This document shows, in pieces, positions 47,863 to 58,446 of a DNA stretch of 64,000 nt. Numbering within the stretch: position 1 is the first letter of the stretch; the number at the start of each line of letters is the position of its first letter. Both the position numbers and the translations under genes were made by a program. The notes below the pieces were generated by a model. The model ran no database searches and was not told the origin of the DNA. It was given only the letters and a program-made list of their open reading frames with translations. Source of the DNA: Sneathiella marina. GTDB lineage: Bacteria; Pseudomonadota; Alphaproteobacteria; Sneathiellales; Sneathiellaceae. The stretch covers positions 3,461,501-3,525,500 of the forward strand of contig NZ_CP098747.1 of NCBI RefSeq assembly GCF_023746535.1. The letters run 5' to 3'.

Positions 47863-48345
47863 TTAAATTTCGTCAATAAATTCGCATGTGACAAATAGCA
47901 TATTAACAACTTTCCCATCTTCAGAAAGCGGCATAATGATATCTTCTGTGGCTTTGAATTCGGAGTTTTTTCCAATGTAGGGCGTTTGTCCAGCTAGCGG
48001 TTGATGAGATTCCACGACCTTGACGCAATTGTTAAAAATCTTGCTTGTGGGACCTTGACCTTTAAAATCAAGCTCACGCATTGTTTTCCCTGTGTTATCT
48101 GTATGTAGCATCTGCAATGTCACCTTCGTGCCGACAAGACGATACCTGAAATCTAAGGGCTCCGTTAGCACGTCCAACAGAATAATGTTCGGAAGAAATG
48201 ATAACATATCTGCAGGCGACATATCTGCACGGGACGGCATGGCACGCGCACCACGCTGCCGCTCCCAGTACGCGAGGGATGAAATGTTAATCGGACTTCT
48301 TAGGCAAGCATCCGAATATAACGAGCCAGCCAGGGCCTTATTCAA
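47863..48345 (-). CDS. PAS_5-family (DUF1457) protein
   Basis: A 160-residue protein consisting of one PAS-like domain of the PF07310 type, found mostly in Alphaproteobacteria. Seen are LAYWERQRGARAMPSRADMS, FLPNIILLDVLTEPLDFRYR, LVGTKVTLQ, FNNCVKVVESHQPL and EDIIMPLSEDGKVVNMLFV. There is no output domain, so it may act as a stand-alone sensor or ligand-binding protein. It stands between putA and the carboxyltransferase gene in the same direction, but gaps of 136 and 172 bases argue for separate transcription. Confidence 0.8.
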   Translation of the reverse strand: MNKALAGSLYSDACLRSPINISSLAYWERQRGARAMPSRADMSPADMLSFLPNIILLDVLTEPLDFRYRLVGTKVTLQMLHTDNTGKTMRELDFKGQGPTSKIFNNCVKVVESHQPLAGQTPYIGKNSEFKATEDIIMPLSEDGKVVNMLFVTCEFIDEI

Positions 48346-50110: not shown

Positions 50111-51154
50111 CTACAAGACCCCTTTACGACTGTCTCTGATTTTATAAATATCCTGATCGTCAAAGCCTCGAATCTTGCGCGTTCCGCCGGATTCGATAAG
50201 AAATTGCTCGTTCAGGGCGTCTTTTACCGGACCATTGATCGTAATTTCCATAGCCTCTGAACATTCTTGTAGGCGCGATGCCAGATTAACCGCCGGCCCA
50301 AAGATGTCATATACGTATTTTTGAATTCCAACGACTGACCCGACAACCGATCCGGACGCAATTCCGATCCGACATCGCCATTGGTTTGGATGCCCCTGGT
50401 TACGGCGATCCAGATATCTTATGAACCTCAATGCCGTATTTGCAACGGCACGGGAATGATCGGGTGTGGGATCTGGTAACCCGGCCACGGTAATATACGC
50501 ATCCCCAATAGTCTTGATACGCTCACAGCCAAACTGCTCGCCAATTCGATCAAAGGCACTGTAAATATCATTGAGTTCGCTGACCGTAACACTTGGGTCT
50601 GCTGACGCAGCCATTTCCGTAAAGCCGACGAAATCCAGCATAAGGACAGAAACCGGGTCATAGAGTTTCGGTGTAACAACTCCGAAAGTTTTAAACTCCT
50701 CATAAACAGACCGCGGCATCATGTTCAACAAAAGTTTCTCTACCTGCTCCTTTTCCCGCTTGATCTCACGTGTGTTGCGCTCAACCATCATGGAATAGGA
50801 ATCAATCATGGATTCCATTTCGCGGATACGAGATATATTTTGGCACACAAGGACGATAAAGGCCCCCTCAGCTTCTGTTGTCAGCGTAAAATCCGCTGCA
50901 AAAATCATCGTCCTGCGTTTTTTTCGAAAATTCAATTCTGCGGTAAAGCGCTTTTTGGCGAGGAGTTGCTCGCGAAGCTCCTTCGCATCAAATTCGGGGA
51001 GCAATTTCGGTAGCGTATCCTGCTCGGGTTGGGGTGCGAACCAATCAACAAAGGTGTCATTTTGAAAACGAAAGCTGAAATCATCCGCATCCAGAAGCGC
51101 AACACCTACGCCAATGGCCCTTAGCAGTTGCTCATTAATTGCTGCAATAGACAT
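50111..51154 (-). CDS. PAS-domain class III adenylate cyclase, downstream of a globin gene
   Basis: A 347-residue soluble cyclase. Residues ~1-120 are a PAS-like domain (GVGVALLDADDFSFRFQNDT, VDWFAPQPE). A coiled-coil linker follows with EKLLLNMMPRSVYEEFKTFG, reminiscent of the signalling helix and LLxxxLP motif of haem-associated cyclases. The catalytic domain (~160-330) has the metal aspartates in LMLDFVGFT and TIGDAYI, the purine-specifying Lys of ERIKTIGD and Asp of YDIFGPAVNLASRLQ (an ATP-type pattern), and the transition-state Arg in the last segment. It begins three bases after the truncated-globin stop with AGGA as ribosome-binding site, so it is translationally coupled to it. Product cAMP is inferred. 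Confidence 0.87.
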   Translation of the reverse strand: MSIAAINEQLLRAIGVGVALLDADDFSFRFQNDTFVDWFAPQPEQDTLPKLLPEFDAKELREQLLAKKRFTAELNFRKKRRTMIFAADFTLTTEAEGAFIVLVCQNISRIREMESMIDSYSMMVERNTREIKREKEQVEKLLLNMMPRSVYEEFKTFGVVTPKLYDPVSVLMLDFVGFTEMAASADPSVTVSELNDIYSAFDRIGEQFGCERIKTIGDAYITVAGLPDPTPDHSRAVANTALRFIRYLDRRNQGHPNQWRCRIGIASGSVVGSVVGIQKYVYDIFGPAVNLASRLQECSEAMEITINGPVKDALNEQFLIESGGTRKIRGFDDQDIYKIRDSRKGVL

Positions 51155-51157
51155 GTT

Positions 51158-51517
51158 TTATCCTACTATAATCCCACGCCTGGCTTCCAATTCACCCATA
51201 ACGGTTTCTGTATCATCTTCAGCAAAACCGTGATCCAAGAGTGTCTTTGCCAAAACGGCTTTCATTTCATCCAAATGTTCATTTTTGATATCAAGATGCG
51301 TATGGAGCTGTTTTAAATGGTCGTCCGAATATGAGGAAGGGCCACCCAACAATGATGCAATGAATTTCGTTTGATGGTCCACAAGCTTACTCATTTCTGT
51401 ATCATCAAAAAACGGCCCGATTTCATCGCTATCGAGCAAACGATCATAGAAATCCAAGACAACTCGGCTTACAGCTGAAAACCCGCCATATTTTTCAAAA
51501 AGTGTTTGATCAGCCAT
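51158..51517 (-). CDS. Group I truncated haemoglobin-like protein
   Basis: A 119-residue 2-on-2 globin of the TrHbN type. LFEKYGGFSAVSRVVLDFYD spans helices A-B with the B10 tyrosine. GPFFDDTEMSKLVDHQTKFI spans C-E. LHTHLDIKNEHLDEM contains the likely proximal (F8) histidine. Such globins bind O2 or NO and act in NO detoxification or sensing. Here it is the first gene of a two-gene unit with an adenylate cyclase, which suggests that it supplies a haem-gas signal to the cyclase or protects it. A direct interaction is inference. There is no signal peptide. Confidence 0.88.
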   Translation of the reverse strand: MADQTLFEKYGGFSAVSRVVLDFYDRLLDSDEIGPFFDDTEMSKLVDHQTKFIASLLGGPSSYSDDHLKQLHTHLDIKNEHLDEMKAVLAKTLLDHGFAEDDTETVMGELEARRGIIVG

Positions 51518-51709: not shown

Positions 51710-52645
51710 TTACGCTACTCGTATCTTGGTTTTATCAGACATAATTCCATTTACCTGCTCTGCAGGCGTGAGCGTTTCCGCACGAACAATATCAAGCCAG
51801 TTCGAGTAGAAAGTCTGTCCCTGATGTTCCCAGGGTGATGGCGACACTTTATCCGTGTTTGTTTTCAAATATTGATAATCAGGTTTTACAGGTGACAAAC
51901 CCTTTGCCAAATCGCGTTGGAATTCGACGTTCAAGCTATCCGCCTCATATTCAAAGTGATTCAGAATGAACGTCTGCTTCGCAAGCGGATCTTCCAGTAT
52001 CGCCGGCCCGGCTGTTGCCGACCCCGCGACAATTTTAACCGAAGGCAAGCGAAACAGGTCGCTATAATCCACTGCCGAATGACGGGAGATCGGCATTAAA
52101 AGCGTATCCGTCAAACCGCGAAGCAAATCCGATGCCGTCTCGAATACATCTTGAATTTCAATGCCAAAGGCTTTTTGCGGGAGGTCTATCTTTGCCACAT
52201 TGTGAAAATGAAACAAAGCGGCATGAGCGGCCCAGCAAACAAAAACTGCCGGTACTTTATTTTTGGAGATTATACTCAAGACATCTGCCATTTCAGTCCA
52301 GTAATCAACATCTTCAAAACGAAGTTTTTCAACCGGCGCGCCCGTTACAATAATACCGTCCAATCCAATGATTTGCTGTTCATCGATAAGGTCGTAATGT
52401 CGGCGCAAATGATACTGACCGCTTGTCCGGCAAACCTGATCGTTCATCCGAAATAGTTTGAGCGACACATTAAGGTCATCCCGGCCTAACCGTCGGGCAA
52501 ATTGCCGTTCTGCAACTTTTTTGTCGGGCATTAGGTTTAGGAGCCCGATAACCAAGTCCGACTTTACAGGCCCCTCAAAAACCACCTGGCCTTCCTCACG
52601 GAGCTGATGGGCGCAAGGCAATCCTTTATTTACACAAATTGGCAT
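51710..52645 (-). CDS. metA: Homoserine O-acetyltransferase of the MetA family
   Basis: Activates homoserine for methionine synthesis; 311 residues. The nucleophile cysteine is in AVFVCWAAHAALFHF, the catalytic His and Glu in LNHFEYEADSL, and the substrate loop is IIVTGAPVEKLRFEDVDYW. In characterised MetA enzymes a Glu at the position after TGAP-x (as here) marks acetyl-CoA specificity, whereas succinyl enzymes such as E. coli have Gly. This fits the neighbouring MetY, which uses O-acetylhomoserine. It is the last gene of the alpha/beta hydrolase-metY-metA run, 38 bases after metY. Confidence 0.92.
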   Translation of the reverse strand: MPICVNKGLPCAHQLREEGQVVFEGPVKSDLVIGLLNLMPDKKVAERQFARRLGRDDLNVSLKLFRMNDQVCRTSGQYHLRRHYDLIDEQQIIGLDGIIVTGAPVEKLRFEDVDYWTEMADVLSIISKNKVPAVFVCWAAHAALFHFHNVAKIDLPQKAFGIEIQDVFETASDLLRGLTDTLLMPISRHSAVDYSDLFRLPSVKIVAGSATAGPAILEDPLAKQTFILNHFEYEADSLNVEFQRDLAKGLSPVKPDYQYLKTNTDKVSPSPWEHQGQTFYSNWLDIVRAETLTPAEQVNGIMSDKTKIRVA

Positions 52646-52683
52646 GTTTCTGCTCCTACAGATATGAAGTGATCAACAACAAT

Positions 52684-53979
52684 CTAGGCACTCGTTTTTT
52701 CAAGCGCCTGTGAGACATCCGCAAGAATGTCATCAATATGCTCGATACCGACAGAAAGGCGGATGTAACCCGGTGTAACACCTGCAGCCAGTTGCTGGTC
52801 TGGCGTCAATTGCTGGTGTGTTGAGGTGGCGGGATGAAGCGCAAGTGTTCTGGTATCGCCGATATTGGCGACGTGATACACCATCTCAAGTGCATCGATA
52901 AAACGCAAACCCGCATCCCGTCCGCCTTTAATTTCGAAGCCGACCAATCCACCAAAGCCTTTTGGCATATGCTGATCAGCCCATCTCTTCTTCACACCTT
53001 CCATTTGGGAGGGATGTATGACAGTTTCCACTTTGTCATTCTGTGACAAATAATCAGCGACAGCCTGGGCATTCTTTGTATGCTCTCGCATGCGAAGTGG
53101 TAGTGTTTCCAATCCTTGAATGAACTGAAATGCATTAAACGGGCTCATGCAGGGCCCCAGATCACGAAGCATCGTTACCCGCGCTTTGATAATATAGGCA
53201 ACTGGGCCCATTGGCTTGGTGGCTTCGGTCCATATGGCACCATGGTAACTTGGATCTGGCATGGTCAACATGGGAAATCTGTCAGCATGCTTTTCCCAGT
53301 CAAATTGGCCGCCATCAATGATCATTCCGCCGATGGAGGTGCCATGCCCACCAATAAATTTCGTTGTTGAGTAGACAACAATATGCGCTCCAAAATCAAA
53401 AGGGCGGCATAATATGGGCGCCGCTGTATTATCCATAATGAGCGGAACACCAATTTCTTCAGCTATGGCTGCCACATCAGATATTGGGAAAACCTGCAGT
53501 TTCGGATTTGGCAATGTTTCCGCATAATACGCTCTTGTCCGTTCATCAGTCGCTCGCCGAAAGTTCTCAGGATCCGTTGGATCAACAAAACGAACTTCAA
53601 TACCCATCGTCTTGAATGTGTTGGCAAACAGGTTCCAACTCCCGCCATATAAATCAGTCGAGCTGACAATATTGTCGCCGGTCGCTGCAATATTCTGGAT
53701 GGAAAGCGCTGTCGCAGCCTGACCGGAACTCACCGCCAATGACGCAACGCCCCCTTCCATAACGGCCATGCGCTGTTCGAGTACATCTGTGGTGGGGTTT
53801 CCAATCCGGCTGTAAATCGGGCCAAGTTCTTGCAGGGCGAAACGGGCGCAAGCCGTTTCCACATCAGGAAACTGGAAAGACGTCGTCTGATGCATTGGGA
53901 CTGCAACAGAGCCTGTTGATGGATCTCCTCTAAAGGAAGCATGCAGTGCAATGGTTTCCGGATTTGTATAATTTGTCAT
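52684..53979 (-). CDS. metY: O-acetylhomoserine sulfhydrylase (MetY), PLP-dependent
   Basis: Cys/Met-metabolism PLP enzyme of 431 residues that condenses O-acetylhomoserine with sulphide to homocysteine. The N-terminus ETIALHASFRGDPSTGSVAV and PIYSRIGNPTTDVLEQRMA are MetY-type. The cofactor lysine is in VVYSTTKFIGGHGTSIGGM, the PLP-phosphate loop is AVSSGQAATALSI, and the C-terminal VGIEHIDDILADVSQALE is standard. It is longer than cystathionine synthases (~380), as expected for MetY. With metA 38 bases downstream it forms a direct-sulphhydrylation methionine pathway. Cytoplasmic. Confidence 0.94.
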   Translation of the reverse strand: MTNYTNPETIALHASFRGDPSTGSVAVPMHQTTSFQFPDVETACARFALQELGPIYSRIGNPTTDVLEQRMAVMEGGVASLAVSSGQAATALSIQNIAATGDNIVSSTDLYGGSWNLFANTFKTMGIEVRFVDPTDPENFRRATDERTRAYYAETLPNPKLQVFPISDVAAIAEEIGVPLIMDNTAAPILCRPFDFGAHIVVYSTTKFIGGHGTSIGGMIIDGGQFDWEKHADRFPMLTMPDPSYHGAIWTEATKPMGPVAYIIKARVTMLRDLGPCMSPFNAFQFIQGLETLPLRMREHTKNAQAVADYLSQNDKVETVIHPSQMEGVKKRWADQHMPKGFGGLVGFEIKGGRDAGLRFIDALEMVYHVANIGDTRTLALHPATSTHQQLTPDQQLAAGVTPGYIRLSVGIEHIDDILADVSQALEKTSA

Positions 53980-55092: not shown

Positions 55093-58000
55093 ATGAATGG
55101 TATCGAACAAATGTTAATGTCCACCGCAAGTCAACAGACGCCAACCACCTCTTTTGCGTCATTTACGGCTGAAGGGGTGATTATTGCTGCAGCTCATGAT
55201 TTCGACCAGTTGTTGCTGAACGGATCAAAAGCAGATACGCGCGCTGCTGTCCTGGAAGCCTATTTAAAACAGCTCGATCACTTCGATCAGGAAGAATTTA
55301 CCCCAACAGCAGCAACCCTTAAATCAGCTTCGGAAAAATGGAGTGACGAACATTCTGCAGCAATCGAAGCACGGTTGGCGAACGGCGAATGGCGGCTTCT
55401 TTCCAGTTATTCCACACCTGATGGCGGCAGTGTTCTATTGAGCGTTGATATAAACAAGCAGAAATGGGAGAGTGAATTTTCAGAGTTCATGCTGCAAAAC
55501 AGCCCCTTGCCTGTTTGGGCGAATGATGCGGAAACCGGGGCGTTACTTTACGCGAATACGGCAACCCATACCCTTTACAGGAAGGCAACCGCGGATGACA
55601 GCGAAAAGGGCTTTAAGAAGTTTTTCGCCAAAAGTAACGAAGACCCCTCTTTCAGGACCCTGATGAAAACCGGATATGACGACAATTACACCTTTGTTAC
55701 AAAGAATGCCGGTGGTGAAGAACTTTGGTTCAGCGGCGCCGCGCGTATTCTTCAATCCGGTGAAAAGGATATTATTGTCACAACAACACAAGACGTTACG
55801 GACAAGAAACGTCAGGAAGAAGAAATCAACAAAGCAAAGGAAATTCTGTCCGACGCGATTGAAAGCTTGAGCGAAGGCTTCGCTCTTTACGATGAGGATA
55901 GCATCCTTGTTATGTTCAACGACAAATATCGCGAAATGAACTATGGGGTGAGTGATCTTCTTGAGCCGGGATTGAACTGGGAAATACTGGTGCGAGAAAC
56001 GGCTAGAAGAGGCATATATGCCGATGCCATCGGCAGGGAGAATGAATGGGTTAACGAGCGGCTGGAAAATGGTGCCGAATTTATTCAGAATTTCGAGCTT
56101 TGGCACGCCGATGGAAATTGTTATACGGTCTCGGTACATCCAACCAAGCTTGGCGGCTTTGTCGTGACACGCACGGACATAACCGCTGAGAAACAGGCCG
56201 ATGAAATGCAGCGCGAGGCAGATGTTCTTTTGCATAAAGTGCTGGAAGCATGCCCAGCGAATGTTCTTATGGCTCGGATAGGCGACGGCAAAATAATCTA
56301 TCGATCGCCCGCCGCCCGGGAACTTTTCGGCAGCACAGAATCCACAAAAGATCATTATGTATATCCCGAAGACAATGCAGATTACCTGACCGATTTGCTT
56401 CCAACCGGCAGAATTGATGATTTTGAAACATTGTGTATTCGCCCGGATGGCACGCACTTCCCCGCAGCTATTTCTGCGCAGGTAATTGATTATCGCGGCG
56501 AAGACGTGATTGTTTCCAGCACCATTGATTTGACAGAGCAGCTTGAAGCACGCCAGGAAATATCTTCGGCGGCCAAACGCCTGACCGATGCCATCGAATC
56601 TCTGGATGAAGCTTTCGCGTTGTTTGATTCAAACCATGCATTGGTTACTTATAACGCGCTCTATCTTGATTCTAATAAGCCGTTAAAGGATATTCTCAAA
56701 CCCGGCGTGAATTTTGAAGAAATCCTTTATGCAGCCGAGAACCAGGGCCGTCAGGAAGATATTGAACCCTTTATCCGCGCCTACGAAGACAGTAAGGAAA
56801 CCGGGCAAGTACGCGCGGAACGGCGGGATATAGAGGAAGAAGACGGACGAATTTATTCGACATCCATCAATCCAACGTCAGAAGGCGGATTTGTCGTAAC
56901 GCGCCTGGATGTAACGATGCAAAAGGAGATGGAGGCAGAACGACGCGCAGCAGATGAAGTTGTCCGCCTGGTTCTCGAGGCCTGCCCGGTTCCGCTTCAG
57001 ATGATCAAATTTGACGATGGCGAATTATTGTTCCGTAGCCCTGAAACAAGATCTTTGCTTGGCGATCCCTCTTCCTCCCGATCCTATTTTGTCGACCTCA
57101 ATGCCTTTGATTCCTACCGTGAGGAGCTTCAAAAGAAAAAATTTGTGAACAACTATCGGATCGAATTGTACAACGCCAAGGGAGAGCCGTTCTGGGGAGC
57201 AATTTCCTGCCGCCTCATCGACTTCAGAGGAGAAGAGGTCATCGTCGCAAATACCCGCGACCTGACGGAAGAACTATCCTTACAAGAGGAATTGGCGAGA
57301 CAGCGGGAAATCTTGTTCCAAAGCGAAAAAATGTCGGCATTGGGCGAGCTCCTTGCGGGCGTTGCCCATGAACTGAACAATCCTCTGTCTATCATTGTCG
57401 GGCATTCCTTGATGATGCAGGAAGAAGTAACCACACCCGGAACGGAGCGGCGTGTCGATATTATCAGTAATGCGGCACAGAGATGCGCGAAGATTATCAA
57501 AACTTTCCTTGCAATGGCCCGGCAAAAGCCAGCTGAAATGCAGGATATCGATATGAATATGGTCATCGCCAGCGCCCTGGATGTTACTGATTTTGCCTCT
57601 GGTAACGGTAGCATGGACCTTGAACGTGATTTGATGGAAAATTTGCCACTGGTCAATGCCGATGCGGACCAAATAACGCAAGTGGTTGTTAATCTCGTCA
57701 TCAACGCGGAGCAGGCCATTACCGCCAGCGGCAAGCCGGGTCAAGTAACACTCAAAACTTCCTATAATCCAGGAACTTCTGAAGTGATTATCCGTGTTGC
57801 TGACAATGGCCCCGGTATTCCGGAAGCCATATCCGCACGCATTTTTGAACCGTTTTTTACGACCAAGGAAATCGGCCAGGGAACGGGGATTGGGCTAGCT
57901 TTCTGCCATAGGATATTGGAATCCCATGGCGGTAGTATCACCGTTAAATCAACTGAAGGACTTGGAACGGAATTTACTCTACGTTTGCCCGCAAAATCAG

Positions 58001-58446
58001 GGCTCGTAAGTGCATTGTCAGAGTCACTGGAAGTTAATCGATCTGCGTCAACCTGTTCCATTCTGGTTGTAGATGACGAAGCAGACGTCGCCGAACTCAT
58101 GCAGGAGATATTGGCTAAGGAGGGGTTCGAGGTTCACACTGCTGAAGATGGGAATGATGCATTGGAGAAATTATCCAAGGAAACATACGATCTGGTTTTG
58201 AGTGATTTGAACATGCCCGGCCTCGACGGCAAGGGTTTGTATGAACAAATCAATTCCCAATATCCTATCCTTGTGGACCGGGTCGGGTTTATTACAGGGG
58301 ATACAATGAGCGAGGACGCGCAGCGCTTCTTGAAGCACGCACAAAGACCAAGCATGGAAAAACCCATCAACCCTCGTGAGCTGAGAAACCTCGTTTACGA
58401 TATGCTAGAGGAGATCGGGGAACCGGTGAAGAAACATGACAATTGA
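55093..58446 (+). CDS. Multi-PAS hybrid histidine kinase
   Basis: A 1117-residue soluble sensor kinase without clear membrane helices. Several PAS-type domains fill residues ~1-730. Units starting near 253 (AIESLSEGFALYDEDS) and 383 (VLEACPANVLMARIGD) are repeated near 497 (AIESLDEAFALFDSN) and 627 (VLEACPVPLQMIKFDD), a tandem duplication of a two-PAS block with equal 130-residue spacing. The dimerisation/phosphoacceptor helix is MSALGELLAGVAHELNNPLS with H759. The ATPase domain has NLVINAEQAI, VADNGPGIPEA and GTGIGLAFCHRI. The C-terminal receiver has D1038 (VLSDLNMPGLDG). It overlaps the response-regulator gene by 11 bases. The signal is unknown. Confidence 0.9.
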   Translation: MNGIEQMLMSTASQQTPTTSFASFTAEGVIIAAAHDFDQLLLNGSKADTRAAVLEAYLKQLDHFDQEEFTPTAATLKSASEKWSDEHSAAIEARLANGEWRLLSSYSTPDGGSVLLSVDINKQKWESEFSEFMLQNSPLPVWANDAETGALLYANTATHTLYRKATADDSEKGFKKFFAKSNEDPSFRTLMKTGYDDNYTFVTKNAGGEELWFSGAARILQSGEKDIIVTTTQDVTDKKRQEEEINKAKEILSDAIESLSEGFALYDEDSILVMFNDKYREMNYGVSDLLEPGLNWEILVRETARRGIYADAIGRENEWVNERLENGAEFIQNFELWHADGNCYTVSVHPTKLGGFVVTRTDITAEKQADEMQREADVLLHKVLEACPANVLMARIGDGKIIYRSPAARELFGSTESTKDHYVYPEDNADYLTDLLPTGRIDDFETLCIRPDGTHFPAAISAQVIDYRGEDVIVSSTIDLTEQLEARQEISSAAKRLTDAIESLDEAFALFDSNHALVTYNALYLDSNKPLKDILKPGVNFEEILYAAENQGRQEDIEPFIRAYEDSKETGQVRAERRDIEEEDGRIYSTSINPTSEGGFVVTRLDVTMQKEMEAERRAADEVVRLVLEACPVPLQMIKFDDGELLFRSPETRSLLGDPSSSRSYFVDLNAFDSYREELQKKKFVNNYRIELYNAKGEPFWGAISCRLIDFRGEEVIVANTRDLTEELSLQEELARQREILFQSEKMSALGELLAGVAHELNNPLSIIVGHSLMMQEEVTTPGTERRVDIISNAAQRCAKIIKTFLAMARQKPAEMQDIDMNMVIASALDVTDFASGNGSMDLERDLMENLPLVNADADQITQVVVNLVINAEQAITASGKPGQVTLKTSYNPGTSEVIIRVADNGPGIPEAISARIFEPFFTTKEIGQGTGIGLAFCHRILESHGGSITVKSTEGLGTEFTLRLPAKSGLVSALSESLEVNRSASTCSILVVDDEADVAELMQEILAKEGFEVHTAEDGNDALEKLSKETYDLVLSDLNMPGLDGKGLYEQINSQYPILVDRVGFITGDTMSEDAQRFLKHAQRPSMEKPINPRELRNLVYDMLEEIGEPVKKHDN

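Follow-up and report, generated by a model that had tools for sequence, protein, structure and literature searches.

A truncated haemoglobin gene paired with a PAS-linked class III cyclase gene in Alphaproteobacteria: a putative split haem-sensor adenylate cyclase

In the window, i.e. the whole stretch of 64,000 nucleotides of Sneathiella marina DNA that was analysed, a truncated haemoglobin gene lies directly upstream of a gene for a class III nucleotide cyclase with a PAS domain. The pairing of these two genes recurs across many alphaproteobacteria and is well supported by the genome surveys described below. We propose, at a probability of about 60%, that the pair is a split haem-sensor adenylate cyclase in which the globin forms a separate sensor subunit, probably a two-protein sensor whose cAMP signal reports on oxygen, nitric oxide or redox state. 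We infer for it a complex of both chains, a ligand and a sign of its effect, along the following route. The haem would be held by His-F8, with His-E10 available as an internal sixth ligand, and would switch upon binding of O2, NO or CO or upon a redox change. The changed globin would then affect the cyclase dimer through its PAS domain, the signalling helix would relay this change to the catalytic domain, and the catalytic domain would make cAMP. The two genes and the parts of their products are:

51158..51517, minus strand: group 1 truncated haemoglobin, 119 aa (ORF list, Pfam, solved-structure relatives)
51158..51517 (within the globin), minus strand: predicted haem-site residues Tyr24 (B10), Phe37, Leu45 (E7), His48 (E10), Gln49 (E11) and His72 (F8) (HbN alignment and HbN numbering)
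51152..51164, minus strand: junction with AGGA (ribosome-binding-like), globin TAA, AAC and cyclase ATG (read in the sequence)
50111..51154, minus strand: PAS-signalling-helix-class III nucleotide cyclase, 347 aa (ORF list, Pfam)
50825..51154, minus strand: PAS domain, cyclase residues 1-110 (structure model, PAS/LOV fold matches, weak Pfam PAS_8)
50720..50836, minus strand: signalling helix, cyclase residues ~107-145, with a C-terminal LLLNMMP (model helix, HNOBA-end matches)
50138..50671, minus strand: catalytic domain, cyclase residues 162-339 (Pfam, residue conservation)
within 50138..50671, minus strand: catalytic residues, metal Asp174 and Asp218, purine-site Lys214 and Asp283, Asn290 and Arg294 (conservation; roles as known from class III cyclases)

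The initial annotation, made from the letters alone, had placed the globin stop three bases ahead of the cyclase ATG, and both the coordinates and the junction itself agree with this. Read directly on the minus strand, the junction is TAA-AAC-ATG with 3 bases between stop and start, and the AGGA stands just 5' of it within the last codons of the globin gene. Profile searches of the bacterium's own genome (4.07 Mb, one contig) gave a single Bac_globin match and 21 cyclase-domain matches, at least two of which are pieces of one place.

Scanning 84,980 species genomes for the cyclase yielded 387 relatives, and the analysis was done on the best 80 of these 387 (the named loci). In all 80 the globin gene lies directly upstream on the same strand, at spacings from -11 to +9 bases, a geometry of translational coupling. 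Often the two reading frames overlap (33 loci at -4, 13 at -11 and one at -8); in the others of these best 80 of 387 the spacing is +3 (23 loci), +4 (8 loci), +7 or +9 (one each). The hosts among them include Sneathiella, Ruegeria, Leisingera, Roseobacter, Tateyamaria, Hoeflea, Nitratireductor, Stappia, Pelagibius and Denitrobaculum. In Novosphingobium pentaromativorans the pair is borne by plasmid pLA3, with 4 bases between the genes, and the annotation of this plasmid names a group 1 truncated hemoglobin and a cyclase and draws no link between them. Among 142 relatives, 15 genomes have a cyclase above 300 bits, each with a globin just upstream. Ruegeria sp. R14_0 possesses two diverged cyclases (L115, L136), which represent two subfamilies and are each accompanied by a globin of its own, and no fusion of globin and cyclase was found among the surveyed loci.

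The same picture emerges from a sample of 385 alphaproteobacterial genomes, in which cyclase matches were considered down to 1e-48. The scores of the matches listed to this value are bimodal, 17 being at 382 bits or above and the rest at 194 bits or below, and all 17 of these family cyclases, which come from 12 families, have the globin; in one pair (genome G051) both genes are frameshifted. Seen from the globin side, 18 matches above 115 bits and the broken G051 copy make 19 family globins in the 385 genomes, 17 of them with the cyclase (17 of 20 if a borderline second copy is counted). Two unpaired family globins lie beside a Rieske oxygenase gene (G063) and beside a 146-aa ORF (G331), and a cyclase profile search of these two genomes gave no match at all. 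The third is the borderline copy of G116 (96.8 bits), a genome which also has a normal pair elsewhere. The G063 globin (L164/L274) has His-E10, and its Rieske-type neighbour was read from the sequence. The 146-aa ORF of G331 was considered as a PAS-only partner; its similarity to the PAS profile is below significance (probability 1.7%), and it has no Pfam match. Beside other truncated globins a class III cyclase was found in none of 74 rows, 7 of which have fewer than 1,200 downstream bases. These 74 unpaired rows correspond to 73 distinct ones (L238 duplicates L176), include L031, L037 and L038 from the search of relatives, and were obtained after removing L239, L182 and L030 as duplicates. 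Eleven further rows were left out: G110, two of G148, the second of G064, G105, G379 C13 and C11, G311 C36, G244, the second of G219 and G118 C11. Because the 80 named loci overlap the genome sets (L070-L076 and L133 are contigs of some of these genomes), the counts were not summed.

The initial annotation had called for conserved pairs across the Alphaproteobacteria and had reckoned the link coincidental should the pair be confined to this one genome. Such pairs were indeed found, at 80 of 80 named loci (best 80 of 387), in 17 of 17 cases in the 385 genomes and in 12 families. That the operon linkage is coincidental and was merely inherited by descent is a reading to which we give very little credence. 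It would fit the restriction of all members found to Alphaproteobacteria: a search of 398 phylum genomes gave globins above 100 bits in this class alone (G000, G640 and G177, of which G640 has the pair), and outside the class none exceeds 79 bits. Against it stand the spread over 12 families with changing neighbours, the overlap of reading frames, the presence of the globin with all 17 family cyclases and joint loss within a genus. Within Sneathiella both genes are present in 9 of 24 genomes, neither in 15 (6 of these 15 are less than 90% complete) and one alone in none; gain and loss are common to both genes. The distances in the two partner trees correlate at 0.89 (n=86 pairs), compared with 0.13 as the highest of 1000 label permutations, a permutation of trees which leaves common species history in the correlation. 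The partner trees have 34 of 83 splits in common and one pair of supported splits conflicts; the globin tree does not reproduce as such a 33-member subfamily clade which the cyclase tree supports at 0.985.

Sequence comparison places the globin in group 1 of the truncated haemoglobins (TrHbN), the name given initially. It matches Pfam Bac_globin above the cut-off (2.2e-16), and its closest solved relatives are group 1 globins, with HbN at 3.5e-15. The alignment with HbN is ungapped and sets globin residue 72 opposite HbN residue 81; the helix numbering of the globin residues (B10, E7, E10, E11, F8) is taken over from HbN numbering. Position 81 of the globin was considered as proximal histidine and rejected, as it is variable and the HbN alignment places F8 at the invariant His72. 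The TrHbN marks H72, Y24, Q49, G11-G12 and G58-G59 are kept in all 86 sequences, and so is the stretch DHQTKF (47-52). Tyr-B10, Phe37, His-E10, Gln-E11 and His-F8 are invariant in the 80 named globins (best 80 of 387), in which E7 is Leu, Met or Ile; Gln also occurs there in more divergent pairs of the class sample. The haem site is therefore intact, and haem binding is predicted from its conservation. The Tyr-B10, Gln-E11 and His-F8 set bears out the TrHbN naming; to this the comparison adds the His-E10 of the family, which had gone unmentioned. His or Lys at E10 is reported to be able to coordinate haem (PMC4720485).

His-E10 occurs in 17 of 17 paired rows versus 7 of 74 others, and three of those seven rows are unpaired globins of this very family. 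Compared with 40 other globins that have the same Tyr/Gln pocket, the paired family is set apart at seven positions: F13, S30, D47, H48, K51, E84 and D102. Among these, Lys51 is found in 16 of 16 paired rows and in none of the 40 other TrHbN-type rows (39 distinct), and removal of the duplicate row L238 changes neither this count nor that of His-E10. None of the three unpaired relatives has F13 or K51, and two of them have also lost D47; with these three negatives as the only comparison, F13, K51 and D47 are candidate contact positions for the cyclase. D47, K51 and E84 are invariant and are predicted to look outward beside the pocket. These outward residues would also suit a globin which belongs to the cyclase as a constitutive structural subunit and whose haem pocket is a relic, which we regard as quite improbable: a relic pocket would drift, and the haem-pocket residues are invariant in 80 of 80 globins (best 80 of 387).

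The cyclase partner matches Pfam Guanylate_cyc at 2.5e-42. Its PAS domain is weak by sequence (PAS_8 at E 0.044 in the window protein, and at E of 0.01 or below in 6 of 14 orthologues), and it is the model of residues 1-125, with a pLDDT of 85.8 and a pTM of 0.75, which establishes the PAS fold and upholds the PAS-like N-terminus described initially. This model matches solved LOV/PAS structures with Z up to 12.5, the best being short LOV domains, and FixL with Z up to 10.9. Likewise the absence of an own haem domain was confirmed: Pfam finds none in the cyclase, and direct reading of residues 1-110 of the window protein finds no histidine. The cysteine motif of LOV domains is missing from the PAS domain too. 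With neither His in residues 1-110 nor the LOV cysteine motif, the PAS domain is more likely to receive a signal than to act as a second sensor. The globin might instead donate haem or electrons to the PAS domain and thereby turn the cyclase itself into the sensor. The likeness of the model to the haem PAS of FixL, among others, speaks for such a role, and we hold it to be very improbable, as the window PAS has no His in residues 1-110 and its best fold matches are flavin LOV domains whose cysteine motif it does not contain.

The LLLNMMP helix had been put forward as a sign of haem-regulated cyclases. The helix is present and matches the end of HNOBA, in 14 of 14 orthologues at E of 0.01 or below, and this part of the claim holds; the special tie to haem regulation does not. 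In the window protein the match covers the last ~50 of 216 positions and reaches 20.4 bits, below the cut-off of 23.4 for HNOBA membership, and a GAF-domain cyclase of Sneathiella scores higher on the same stretch (28.5 bits). LLLNMMP as a mark of haem regulation was consequently dropped: it is common to the GAF cyclase and aligns with mammalian adenylate cyclases.

In class III cyclases two aspartates bind metal, a Lys/Asp pair forms the purine site, and an Asn and an Arg complete the set. The metal residues D174 and D218 and the purine-site residues K214 and D283 are conserved in 86 of 86 sequences, N290 in 82 and R294 in 84 of 86. The catalytic site is thus intact, and the purine-site Lys and Asp of ATP type, which the initial annotation had singled out, are kept throughout. 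The residues are those expected of an ATP-using adenylate cyclase, which makes cAMP the predicted product.

Apart from the cyclase, which is the sole constant partner of the globin, the neighbouring genes vary. Genes found nearby in one subfamily encode a PAS histidine kinase in divergent orientation (36 of 80 loci), an alpha/beta hydrolase (28 of 80) and a methyltransferase (27 of 80), all counted in the best 80 of 387; in the other subfamily TetR and polyphosphate-kinase-like genes adjoin (by reading), and elsewhere none of these neighbours is found. The window itself encodes at 55093-58446 a multi-PAS hybrid histidine kinase, homologues of which are those lying divergently upstream of the pair in the 36 loci. 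At 51710-53979 it encodes a MetA-like homoserine acyltransferase and MetY. A MetA-like gene also adjoins the pair in 27 of 80 loci (in the range L116-L149; best 80 of 387). In one subfamily it lies upstream, in the other it lies downstream in convergent orientation, and the methyltransferase takes the upstream place in 27 loci of the same set. A link to methionine or SAM is conceivable. A small protein with a PAS_5 domain (Pfam, 1.2e-09) is encoded at 47863-48345, downstream of a carboxyltransferase gene. No FNR, NnrR or CRP box stands out in the 81 regions upstream of the globins: an FNR/NnrR box with one mismatch occurs in 2 of 81 versus 0.35 in single-base shuffles, and other regulatory motifs are at or under the shuffled counts.

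These neighbourhoods bear on the possibility that the globin is an enzyme, e.g. a NO dioxygenase or a nitrite- or peroxide-handling protein, which serves the same response as a cyclase sensing otherwise via its PAS domain, operon membership alone being common. Tyr-B10 and Gln-E11 form the pocket of HbN, and NAD(P)/FAD oxidoreductases occur near some pairs, two of them upstream on the Novosphingobium plasmid; a few Rhizobiaceae loci have one of similar kind. PMC3820574 describes an NsrR operon of Legionella which joins a truncated globin and a ferredoxin reductase, a two-gene arrangement like ours with a reductase instead of a cyclase. However, no reductase is a constant neighbour of the pair in the surveyed loci, and His-E10 and the paired-only Lys51 should be dispensable for dioxygenase chemistry. 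We therefore regard an enzymatic globin as rather unlikely.

Other arrangements of truncated globins were met in the survey. Five Sneathiella genomes contain a truncated globin of divergent sequence, with Val, Ser and Ala in the distal pocket and His-F8 kept, which lies 47-57 bases before a GAF-domain class III cyclase (L037:1492-3182, L268-L271, L210). Among 28 loci with that globin type this pairing was found in Sneathiella only, and the contig of L289 (G242) ends too soon. At L238:396-3326 (G146) a truncated globin domain lies inside a CheA kinase, between Hpt and dimerisation domain (Pfam, L238 only); by reading, L171 (G114), L173 (G249), L174 (G218) and L178 (G082, with two globin domains) are similar, so that a fused gas-sensing CheA is predicted in Alphaproteobacteria. 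Family f188, outside the class, has 2-3 tandem truncated globin genes in many genomes (e.g. L243, L248).

Returning to the split haem-sensor cyclase, its layout as first described, i.e. sensor chain, PAS, signalling helix and cyclase in this order, is supported by the anatomy of the two proteins. The joined AlphaFold model of both has a pTM of 0.42, a score at which no interface is readable. Its top Foldseek match is human soluble guanylate cyclase (8hbf_A, E 1.7e-19, TM only 0.38), which mirrors the PAS-helix-cyclase order and no common sensor. A more detailed version, for which we see somewhat less than even odds, is that of a two-chain bacterial counterpart of soluble guanylate cyclase. The His-E10/His-F8 truncated haemoglobin would be the exchangeable gas or redox receptor of the PAS-linked adenylate cyclase, docked through D47 and K51 of its E helix and through the region around E84, and opening of its hexacoordinate haem by NO, O2 or CO would switch cAMP.

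The role of most bacterial truncated globins is disputed, and a strictly conserved partner with a measurable output offers a direct test of a signalling role for them. If the proposal is true, the pair would provide the first known case of a truncated globin acting as receptor subunit of a nucleotide cyclase, and a gas-sensing cyclase could be built from separate sensor and enzyme chains. The pair could usefully be compared with soluble guanylate cyclase and be turned into cAMP reporters of gases, and roseobacters and Sneathiella are genetically accessible or culturable hosts. No description of a truncated-globin-cyclase gene pair was found in the open-licence PMC literature; an account in a subscription journal is possible.

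Soluble guanylate cyclase has sensor, PAS, signalling helix and class III cyclase in the same order as the pair, but its sensor is an H-NOX domain, whereas the pair has a globin on a separate chain, ATP-type residues and a bacterial host. HemAC-Lm of Leishmania, a fused protein, resembles our proposal in that a globin controls an adenylate cyclase in response to O2; in the pair the globin is a 2/2 truncated one encoded as a separate chain, and a PAS domain lies in between. In globin-coupled sensors a longer sensor globin is fused to the transmitter. Synechocystis GlbN and the Chlamydomonas THB1-type globins are not known to be paired with a cyclase gene. The latter two share the group 1 fold and have a ligating E10 residue, a position at which His or Lys can be a sixth ligand (PMC4720485). 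HemAC-Lm is named as a globin-coupled adenylate cyclase in PMC12755159, and bacterial globin-coupled sensors, in which the globin is the input to a signalling enzyme as we propose for the pair, are treated in PMC3820574 and PMC4720485. Because the cyclase begins with the PAS domain and has no H-NOX match in Pfam, stays below the HNOBA cut-off and has its globin as a separate ORF with a stop codon, the pair stands outside both families. It would work like soluble guanylate cyclase or like a globin-coupled cyclase, yet it belongs to neither.
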